In this document: positions 20,298 to 50,092 of the stretch, one piece after another
Layout: each line of letters starts with the position of its first letter
How positions within the stretch are numbered: position 1 is the first letter of the stretch
DNA from: Paenibacillus sp.
GTDB lineage: Bacteria > Bacillota > Bacilli > Paenibacillales > YIM-B00363
Assembly: GCF_035645195.1 (NCBI RefSeq)
Contig: NZ_DASQNA010000046.1
Coordinates: 1-64,000, forward strand
Direction of reading: 5' to 3'
DNA: 64,000 bases
Program-made: the position numbers and the translations under genes
The notes under the pieces: model-generated
The model's input: the letters and a program-made list of their open reading frames with translations, nothing else
Database searches by the model: none
What the model was told of the DNA's origin: nothing

Positions 20298-20695
20298 CTT
20301 ACACGCTATCCCCGTCGCTCAGCATTCATCTCCAATTTTTGCTTCCCTCATTTCCCTCCGTCCTTTCATCTTCCGCTTCTGCACCTGCTATCCCCTTGCC
20401 TCAGGATGTCCCGCAAAAACCTCTTTTGAAATAAATCCTTACAAACGACGATCCCATCGACTCGACTGCCACTAATTACTACGATTACCACTAATCACTT
20501 CCATTACCACTAATCAATACCACTACCACTAATCAATACCATTACCACTGATCACTACCATTACCAGTACTCCTGCCACTGCCACCGCCAATGCCCGAAT
20601 GTCCGTCCCCTGCTTTTATTACACGTTATCCCATCCACTCAGCTTCCGCGCAATGAACCTAGCACGCCCGCTTGCGTGCTATCCCCTTCACTCAG
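20298..20695 (-). repeat. Inverted copies of the 25-bp core repeat (left side of locus 1)
   Basis: Four diverged copies of the core seen in the array to the right, but in opposite orientation: 20298-20322, 20380-20404, 20618-20642 and 20671-20695. Each reads CTTAC or a variant, then CTATCCC, then CTCAG on the plus strand. Spacing is irregular. Confidence 0.7.
20468..20581. repeat. 19-bp minisatellite
   Basis: Five to six imperfect tandem units of 19 bp with the core ACCACTAATCA (starts at 20468, 20487, 20506, 20525, 20544 and a degenerate 20563). The sequence is strand-asymmetric, poor in G, and has no coding potential. It lies between inverted copies of the 25-bp core repeat. Confidence 0.8.
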
Positions 20696-20760
20696 CAACG
20701 GTTTGACCACGATGACTTTGTTTTATATTTTTTTCTGTTTTCTTCCAGTTAACCGATATG

Positions 20761-21256
20761 CTGCTGAGTCGAAGGGAGAGCGTGTAAGGCTGAGGCAACC
20801 TGAGCCACGGGGATAGCGTGTAAGGAGGCGACAACTTGCTTAGCCAAGGGGATATCACGTAAGGAAGCGACAACTTGCTGCGTCAAGGGGATAACACGTA
20901 AGGAGGCGACAACTTGCTGAGCCAAGGGGATTTCACGTAAGGAAGCGGCAACCTGCTGAGCCAAGGGGATAGCGCGTAAGAAAGCGATAACTTACTGAAC
21001 CAAGGACATACCACAAAAGAAAGCGGCAACTTGCTGAGTCAAGGGGATACCACGTAAGAAAGCGACAACTTGCTGAGCCTAGGGGATTTCACGTAAGAAA
21101 GCGGCAACTTGCTGAGTCAAGGGGAGACCACGTAAGGAAGCGGCAACTAGCTGAGTCAAGGGGATACCAAGTAAGAAAGCGGCAACCTGCTGAACCAAGG
21201 GGATAACCACGTAAAGGAAGCGACAACTAGCTGAGCCAAGGGGATACCACGTAATA
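20761..21256 (+). repeat. 39-bp tandem array, 13 units, carrying the 25-bp core
   Basis: Thirteen units; the GTAAG at the end of each unit recurs at 20784, 20820, 20859, 20898, 20937, 20976, 21015 (degenerate), 21054, 21093, 21132, 21171, 21211 and 21251, i.e. almost exactly every 39 bp. Each unit has CTGAGYCAAGGGGATA, then CACGTAAG, then a purine-rich AAGCGGCAACTTG spacer. Because 39 is a multiple of three, open frames run through the array, but there is no ribosome site or domain and I regard it as non-coding. Confidence 0.9.
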
Positions 21257-47968: not shown

Positions 47969-48092
47969 CTTACGCGCTATCCCATCGGCTCAGCCGTCAC
48001 CCTTCGAACCTCCCCGACGCATTTCTTACGTGATATCCCATCGACTCAGCAAACCAATGCAACTTCACTTACGCGATATCCCTGCGGCTCAG
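47969..48092 (-). repeat. Three inverted copies of the 25-bp core (left of transposase-like gene)
   Basis: Copies at 47969-47993, 48025-48049 and 48068-48092, each reading CTTACG, then TATCCC and GGCTCAG or a close variant on the plus strand; these are reverse complements of the copies to the right of the gene. Spacing is 56 and 43 bp. Confidence 0.85.
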
Positions 48093-48138: not shown

Positions 48139-48167
48139 TTGAAATGCGAACATTTGTTTGGTATAAT
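48139..48167 (+). promoter_or_regulatory. Promoter of the transposase-like gene
   Basis: TTGAAA (48139-48144), a 17-bp spacer and a perfect TATAAT (48162-48167), 34 bp before the GTG start. This is one of the best SigA matches in the window and argues that the gene is expressed. Confidence 0.7.
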
Positions 48168-48201: not shown

Positions 48202-49023
48202 GTGGAGGATATCGTTCAATTCTTCTACCAAAGAAAATGGCCTGACGGGTTTCGTTGCCCCCGGTGCGGACATTCAATCGCTTATACCATTCATTCGGAA
48301 AAGCGCTCCCTGCCCTTATACCAGTGTCAGGCTTGTAAACATCAAACGACCCTAACCGCCGGTACCGCTCTGGAGCGAAGCCGTACGCCCCTCGAAAAAT
48401 GGGCAGTCGCGATCCAAGCCATGTCCCGCGACGAAAGCATTAATGCCGTTCAATTAATGGGCATCATCGCCGTTACATATAAAACAGCTTGGTCCATGCT
48501 GAGAAAACTTCGTCAATGCATCAACCAGTGGGATGCGGCACAACCGTTGGTCGGCCGACTGGCAGCGGGTGCCGCCACGTATGGTACCCCCGCTTTTCGG
48601 ACATGCCTGCGATATCCCCACGAACGTCCGGTTATCGTTGGCATTTCGTATGACCGAACTGGAAATCCGATCTATACGAAAATGAAACCCGGCGATGCCG
48701 AACTGCTGCGGAACGCCTCGAAACGCCGACACTGGGAAAACGAATTTGTTCGGAACCATGTCAGAAGCGAGTTCCCCGTTCAGATCTTACCGCGCATCCC
48801 TTTTCACAAAAATGAGGACTTGCGCAGTGCATACTATTCCGCCACATCTTGGATCCATCGAACATTTCGCGGCATCAGCTCCCGATATTTAGAGCTGTAT
48901 TTTGATGAATATTGCTTTAGAATCAATATGCGGCTCCATGGTCAAAATCCAATTGAGGTGCTGCTATCCGCCTGCATGCAGACGTCGTCACACACATCAA
49001 TACGGATGGCTGCTGCAGCATAA
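48202..49023 (+). CDS. IS1595/ISXO2-like transposase-related protein lacking the expected catalytic motif
   Basis: A 273-residue protein. Residues 1-60 hold the IS1595-type zinc ribbon (RCPRCGH ... YQCQACKHQTTLTAGT) after the typical RKWPDGF. A helical domain (about 65-110) and a region collinear with the ISXO2-like DDE domain follow, ending in LELYFDEYCFRINMRL. Where active relatives have a DE-containing strand, this protein reads PLVGRLAAGAATYGT, with no acidic residue, and no clear second Asp is seen. The start is GTG with GGTGGGA six bases upstream. The reading frame is intact, and local GC is lower than in neighbours. No terminal inverted repeats are evident. Possibly a domesticated or decayed transposase. 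Confidence 0.7.
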   Translation: MEDIVQFFYQRKWPDGFRCPRCGHSIAYTIHSEKRSLPLYQCQACKHQTTLTAGTALERSRTPLEKWAVAIQAMSRDESINAVQLMGIIAVTYKTAWSMLRKLRQCINQWDAAQPLVGRLAAGAATYGTPAFRTCLRYPHERPVIVGISYDRTGNPIYTKMKPGDAELLRNASKRRHWENEFVRNHVRSEFPVQILPRIPFHKNEDLRSAYYSATSWIHRTFRGISSRYLELYFDEYCFRINMRLHGQNPIEVLLSACMQTSSHTSIRMAAAA

Positions 49024-49591
49024 TTTATTCAAATATTTAACGAAATTAATAAGTTATCACAATCGTAGGACAAGAGCAGGTTCTTAAGCACAAATAACGG
49101 CGAAAGTTAACATAAATAAGTACTTTGGGAAAATTTCAAACTAGTAAGCATAAGTAATCCCAGCTATCGGATATCGATTTTAAACCTCTTAAAGTGTGGA
49201 GAGAAATTACCTCCAAACGAACTCTCGCTCCATCCTAATGCGATGCATGTAATTATCTGAACCAATGGGATAACACGTAAGGCATCGAAGCGCGTGGTAG
49301 CCCAACCCCCAAACCGTCATCGTTGTAAATGCAGCGCTCCTCGTTACCGTCTGGTTGCCGAATGGACTCTCTCATTCGCTGATTTTAGGGGACAACGTGT
49401 TATTAATGACGTATCTTTCATTGCAGCCGGAACAGATCCAGAGGAACACCCCCTTACCAACTCGCGGAAGTCGTTAGTAAAACGATTTGGGAACGTACTG
49501 AGCCAATGGGATAATGGGTAGGAATGTGGAGGCCGCGTGGAGATCTGCAGAGAAAGTAGGAGAACGGGATGGGCACAGCGAGGCTTCCCTT
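49024..49591. other. AT-rich intergenic stretch with two isolated core repeats
   Basis: Lower-GC sequence after the transposase-like gene with no supported gene. Single copies of the 25-bp core lie at 49257-49281 and 49498-49522, both in the same direction as the array that follows. An open frame of 75 codons at 49294-49521 lacks a ribosome site. Confidence 0.55.
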
Positions 49592-50040
49592 CTGAGTCGA
49601 TGGTATAGCGCGTAAGCGTGCGCGGAGAGGCTTTCTGCTGAGCCGATGGGATAGCGCGTAAGCGTGCGCGGAGAGGCTCACTGCCTGAGCCGAAGGGATA
49701 GCGCGCGTAAGCGTGCGCGGAGAGGCTCACTGCTGAGCCGATGGGATAGCGCGTAAGCGTGCGCGGAGAGGCTCACTGCCTGAGTCGATGGGATAGCGCG
49801 TAAGCGTGCGCGGAGAGGCTCGTTGCTGAGCCGAAGGGATAGCGCGCGTAGGCGTGCGCGGAGAGGCTCACTGCCTGAGTCGATGGGATAGCGCGTAAGC
49901 GTGTGCGGAGAGGCTTACTGCCTGAGCCGATGGGATAGCGTGTAAGCGTGCGCGGAGAGGCTTACTGCCTGAGCCGAAGGGATAGCGCGTAAGCGTGCGC
50001 GGAGAGGCTCACTGCCTGAGCCGATGGGATAGCGAGTAAG
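49592..50040 (+). repeat. 46-49-bp tandem array, 10 units, carrying the 25-bp core
   Basis: Ten units; the terminal GTAAG recurs at 49612, 49658, 49707, 49753, 49800, 49848 (GTAGG), 49895, 49942, 49989 and 50036, mostly 47 bp apart. Each unit has CTGAGCCGATGGGATAGCGC plus GTAAG, then a CGTGCGCGGAGAGGCTCACTG spacer, which differs from the spacer at the 20.8 kb array although the core is shared. The units are more alike here than in the other array, suggesting recent amplification. Confidence 0.92.
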
Positions 50041-50056: not shown

Positions 50057-50092
50057 AGAAGCCCCATCCGCGCAAAAGGCGGGTGGGGCTTC
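50057..50092 (-). terminator. Hairpin terminator after ftsZ
   Basis: A 14-bp GC-rich stem (GAAGCCCCACCCGC with its partner on the minus strand) just downstream of ftsZ; the T tract (TTCTTG) is weak. It lies 16 bp from the end of the tandem array. Confidence 0.6.

Follow-up and report, generated by a model that had tools for sequence, protein, structure and literature searches.

To our knowledge, few domesticated transposases are known in bacteria, and the known ones that are linked to repeats, the RAYTs, are HuH enzymes. RAYT (TnpA-REP) proteins are proposed domesticated transposases associated with short REP/REPIN repeats and belong to the HuH superfamily (PMC8266576). Insertion sequences of the IS1595 family produce an 8-bp target-site duplication (PMC8101967), and the mobile elements under LexA control include prophages, ICEs and integrons (reviewed in PMC9578287). 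Here we analyze a gene in a 64,000-nucleotide stretch of Paenibacillus sp. DNA (hereafter, the window) whose product descends from an IS1595-family (ISXO2-like) transposase and has lost its catalytic residues. A large bacterial protein family of such dead IS1595 descendants has apparently not been described so far. Our literature search found no description of one, but it left the subscription literature largely uncovered, and absence from it is not proof.

Loss of the catalytic residues in an intact gene

The gene and the parts of its product are as follows.

48202-49023, + strand: gene of the dead IS1595-like protein, 273 aa; GTG start, stop codon ending at 49023
Protein residues: zinc ribbon C19/C22/C42/C45; helical region 64-112; degenerate RNase H core 117-248

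The initial annotation of the window, made from the sequence alone, had read this gene as an intact frame for an apparently non-catalytic protein that keeps the zinc ribbon and a C-terminal region of ISXO2-like transposases. The frame is indeed uninterrupted, and the zinc ribbon and the C-terminal helices are retained. PF12760 (Zn_ribbon_IS1595) matches residues 3-48 of the window protein with an E of 1.2e-9. Of the DDE domain PF12762, only the last 28 positions (profile 126-153) match, and this match is below the cut-off. The match to the NCBIfam IS1595 model is likewise below the cut-off. The PF12760 zinc ribbon is present in 45/45 members of the clade to which the protein belongs, and the only families that match clade members at E <= 0.001 are the IS1595 zinc-ribbon and DDE families.

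In catalytic relatives (Oscillospiraceae, Desulfovibrionaceae and others), the three catalytic positions read VELDD, TDG and N. The window protein has PLVGRLAAGAATYG in the position of GVVELDDSYFGG, which confirms the substitution claimed for the first catalytic acidic strand, and neither of the other catalytic positions is retained. A search for homologues with the same loss found them across the clade. Among 83 aligned members (79 distinct), the first Asp is replaced in all except one that keeps D and one that has E, the block around the second Asp is deleted, and the Asn of the third position is retained only once. Members found later in genome G423 have an Asp near the first position (VHDACYG), and the other two catalytic positions are absent. 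Because the same losses mark the whole clade, the loss of the triad goes far beyond chance. An alternative acidic triad was considered and rejected on conservation, since E236 alone among the acidic residues is nearly invariant across 45 homologues; it sits in the YLDEF helix, which is common to the catalytic members. The clade-wide loss of all three positions and the lack of another conserved acid support the view that the protein is non-catalytic. Neither outcome that would have refuted it, an alternative complete DDE triad or homologues full of stop codons, was met.

The structure prediction proposed in the initial annotation was carried out, and it recovered a DDE/integrase-like core. The AF2 model of the window protein was confident (mean pLDDT 91.1), and its region 117-248 aligned with ISCth4 (Z 8.5, rmsd 4.2 over 169 residues) and with HIV integrase cores (Z ~6.7, rmsd ~3 over ~105 residues). 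The statement on the fold is based on VIA-align, which gave Z values of only moderate size (6-9), and a plain Foldseek search of the PDB was weak (best E 6e-4, low TM). The AF2 model of one catalytic relative was poor (pLDDT 62.6), which prohibited superposition of the window protein on it. As judged from the predicted model, the DDE/integrase-like fold is retained and the active site is lost.

In a profile search (E <= 1e-30), the family was found in 93 of the 296 genomes sampled from the order of the window's genome, often as several divergent copies per genome, and members also occur outside the order in some other Bacilli (G423, G371). The dead proteins lie on one side of a branch with an SH-aLRT of 100 and form a monophyletic clade, within which the window gene groups with L142 (G002) and L147 (G001) at a support of 98-99. 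The inner branching order is unsure because the trees come from quick searches and have long branches. Besides the window gene, the window's genome has three more full copies (37-42% identity) and one additional pair (47%) that is interrupted by contig ends. This pair (L005-L008, at the ends of contigs C37, C43 and C14 of G000) consists of near-identical paralogues, which implies that the duplication was recent; the arrays that flank the two copies are different.

Purifying selection at fixed chromosomal sites

The window gene is located between ftsZ and spoIIGA, and its closest relatives in two congeneric genomes, L142 and L147, occupy the same site. The site lacks the gene in G003, G004, G005, G007 and G008, and the occupancy of individual sites is patchy. 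Many copies in the family are orthologous at matching chromosomal sites, flanking genes included, some of them between Cohnella and other genera. A divergent member, L069 of Cohnella rhizosphaerae, is found in the ftsZ-spoIIGA interval in the opposite orientation, for which reason the interval may be a preferred site.

To obtain dN/dS among homologues, as the initial annotation had proposed, the Nei-Gojobori method was used. The values were 0.08-0.26 in 15 pairs with one or both flanks in common, with dS of ~0.2-1.2 in most, which indicates purifying selection; in the multi-copy paralogues of G008 they were 0.05-0.24. For pairs that include the window gene, dS was saturated, and its own dN/dS (about 0.1) is therefore only indicative. 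The values for syntenic orthologues indicate that the protein is selected in place. Selection on a stationary copy requires a function at that site, and the case for domestication rests mainly on this point. Thus, the earlier suggestion that the gene is domesticated gains support from selection at fixed sites, with the reservation that dispersed copies in two genomes show some of the clade to be spreading as well.

Bipolar repeats that resemble transposon ends

CTGAG-N6-GGGATA repeats surround the window gene, with three inverted copies upstream and 12 copies downstream, so that the two arms face outward.

47978-47993, - strand: repeat CTGAGCCGATGGGATA, upstream arm copy 1; extended match CTTACGCGCTATCCCATCGGCTCAG from 47969
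48034-48049, - strand: end-derived repeat, upstream arm copy 2
48077-48092, - strand: end-derived repeat, upstream arm copy 3
49257-49272, + strand: repeat CTGAACCAATGGGATA, downstream arm, isolated copy
49498-49513, + strand: end-derived repeat, downstream arm, isolated copy
49592-50040, + strand: tandem array of ten downstream copies with a 47-bp period, closely followed by the ftsZ terminator hairpin (50058-50092)
20307-21246: another bipolar array of this repeat class, lacking a gene, with 4 minus-strand copies (20307-20695) and 13 plus-strand copies (20764-21246)

Paralogues show the same bipolar layout with repeat sequences and unit lengths of their own. Over 72 loci, 103 copies were upstream on the minus strand, 1 upstream on the plus strand, 118 downstream on the plus strand and 0 downstream on the minus strand, so that 221/222 fit the layout. 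Up to 144 of these copies are seeds that were chosen in the bipolar layout; the independent copies number ~77 versus 1. The inverted-arm score was 14.9, compared to 10.8 for direct arms and 11.1 for a distal control. The more similar two proteins are, the more similar are their repeats (Mantel rho 0.42, 0/2000), also below 45% identity (rho 0.23, 0/2000). This correlation shows co-inheritance of repeat and protein and is consistent with specific binding, for which there are no binding data.

The terminal inverted repeats (TIRs) of catalytic relatives have a similar core, for example GCTTACTAAAAGGGATAACC in L062 and CTGAGCAGAGTGCATAG in L231. L147 and L225 have a single inverted repeat pair. 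Since L147 has no more than one copy at either end, the arrays give the impression of transposon ends that were multiplied. The initial annotation had offered repeat binding as an example of a domesticated role; paralogue-specific, bipolar, TIR-derived repeats on both sides of the gene strongly suggest it, and the binding itself has not been shown. A genome-wide, global binding system in the window's host was rejected, since 27 of the 29 CTGAG-N(3-6)-GGGATA matches in that genome are confined to three loci. Repeat matches are far more widespread in G008 (193 versus 3 in the control).

The gene-less array in the window lies 27 kb from the gene, has a centre of ~70 bp and encloses another tandem repeat at 20469-20585. 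Five loci in G008 (L209, L210, L211, L215 and L216) are also bipolar arrays with no gene-like match between the arms and resemble REPIN units; in L211, 7 minus-strand copies are followed by 8 plus-strand copies around a 22-bp centre.

A LexA-type box in the promoter

The promoter of the window gene contains a palindrome in the spacer between its -35 and -10 elements.

48139-48167, + strand: sigma-A-type promoter TTGAAA-17-TATAAT (-35 at 48139-48144, -10 at 48162-48167)
48147-48160, + strand: LexA/SOS-box-like operator CGAACATTTGTTTG

The B. subtilis LexA box is CGAAC-N4-GTTCG (PMC9578287), from which CGAACATTTGTTTG differs by one half-site mismatch. Upstream of recA, the window's genome has AGAATGTATGTTCG and G008 has CGAATGTATGTTCG. 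A LexA-type box is present within 300 bp upstream in 83 of 92 homologous loci, compared to 2.0% of 1871 control windows, and the enrichment was also examined by a score-based test. In 59 loci the box is no more than 3 bp from a -10-like hexamer. The initial annotation had taken this promoter for a strong expression signal. The hexamers and spacing are exactly as claimed, but the spacer holds the box, and the promoter is probably LexA-repressed and inducible by DNA damage rather than constitutively strong; LexA binding and induction are inferred.

Some catalytic IS1595 relatives from other Bacilli also carry LexA-box-like palindromes upstream (L227, L228, L231, L233, L243-L245), and both terminal inverted repeats of L231 contain the LexA-like box. 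These findings suggest, as far as such palindromes can indicate it, SOS-timed transposition in the IS1595 family. No good box had been seen in the outgroup loci scanned, and LexA control was first held to be a novelty of the dead clade; the boxes of the catalytic Bacilli relatives led us to drop this idea. SOS control thus extends beyond the dead clade and may stem from a selfish phase, and it probably predates or parallels the catalytic loss, to judge from where the boxes occur.

Function in place or continued mobility

The reading that we favor, with a probability of about 0.62, is that the gene encodes an SOS-induced, non-cutting, end-binding protein that was domesticated from an IS1595-family transposase and coats or bridges its arrays. 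The sequences support the clade-wide loss of the triad, the purifying selection at fixed sites, the LexA-type operator and the TIR-like bipolar repeats. Beyond these, we infer that LexA would keep the gene off and that DNA damage would derepress it; that the zinc ribbon and the helices following it would bind the CTGAG-N6-GGGATA repeats; and that the protein, like a transposase holding both ends, would join the two inverted arrays or coat them without cutting. DNA damage would in this way lead to a nucleoprotein or loop complex at the locus. Nothing but inference stands behind the bridging of the two arms, and the benefit is also inferred: the complex might serve as a roadblock, in silencing, in local protection or in repression of related elements, and it is not known which.

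The family also appears to have spread. Nine dispersed full copies at 88-97% amino acid identity with unrelated flanks are found in G008, and eight dispersed copies at 68-95% DNA identity in G423. Both genomes thus appear to have gained copies once the triad had been lost, which suggests that the units also spread in this state. It is therefore conceivable, if unlikely, that the unit is still a selfish mobile element, in which the protein binds the ends, the unit moves by an unrecognized chemistry or by a catalytic enzyme supplied in trans, and the SOS response times the moves. The presence or absence of the gene at the same chromosomal site fits such an element, the gene-less bipolar arrays of G008 and the window resemble non-autonomous derivatives, and the SOS response is known to control mobile elements of other kinds (PMC9578287). 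However, there is no conserved acidic triad, no full-length PF12762 match was found in G008 or in the window's genome, and no clear target-site duplication was detected in the end alignments of G008 or at the ftsZ-spoIIGA site compared with G004. Selection for moving would also leave the purifying selection on stationary orthologues unexplained. In a related proposal, which we regard as doubtful and offer only as speculation, the triad-less DDE-fold family would drive, or be required for, the SOS-timed spread and upkeep of bipolar arrays in the manner of REPIN/RAYT systems, with a chemistry that is new or borrowed from the host.

A dead end-binder could also act as a dominant-negative repressor by occupying the TIRs of related active IS1595 elements. 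The retained end-recognition part and the TIR-like repeats agree with this role, and G003 has one catalytic IS1595-like gene. We nevertheless find it improbable: a full-length catalytic PF12762 match is absent from 7 of the 8 hosts searched, each paralogue in the window's genome has repeats of its own, which lie mostly near the gene, and multiplied sites beside the gene would titrate the repressor off its targets. Although gene-less arrays and gene fragments exist, an insertion sequence that is decaying and open merely by chance can hardly account for open frames with a dN/dS of 0.05-0.26 over dS up to ~1, for an operator conserved in 83/92 loci and for the same losses across a deep clade; plain decay is contradicted by the selection estimated from these alignments. 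The domesticated end-binder remains our preferred explanation, and how triad-less units still spread, as in the copy bursts of G008 and G423, is a sharp question and the main point left unexplained.

Comparison with known systems

With IS1595 insertion sequences (ISXO2-like, with DDN-type members such as L059-L073 of Oscillospiraceae and L231 of Bacilli), the dead clade shares the zinc ribbon, the C-terminal helices, the single gene and inverted ends with a similar core. It differs from them in that the triad is missing, the block of the second Asp is deleted, the ends are often multiplied into arrays and the copies reside at fixed sites over long terms. A LexA box is found in nearly all dead members and in some catalytic relatives of Bacilli, whereas it is absent from the Oscillospiraceae and proteobacterial ones. 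An SOS box over the promoter is likewise common to the LexA-controlled mobile elements, but these encode active recombinases or phage functions, while the product of the dead clade has no catalytic residues.

The likeness to RAYT/TnpA-REP consists of a proposed domesticated transposase, short repeats that flank the gene and are dispersed, and gene-less repeat units. In contrast to these HuH proteins, members of the dead clade have a DDE fold that lacks catalytic residues, occur as many divergent paralogues in a genome and have their repeats mostly arrayed beside the gene. The family makes it possible to test of what use to the cell a transposase is that binds ends without cutting. If our reading is true, a dead DDE family that is present in about one-third of the sampled genomes of an order, is under selection, is switched by LexA and is tied to its own TIR-derived repeats represents a second, independent route from an insertion sequence to a resident genome system.
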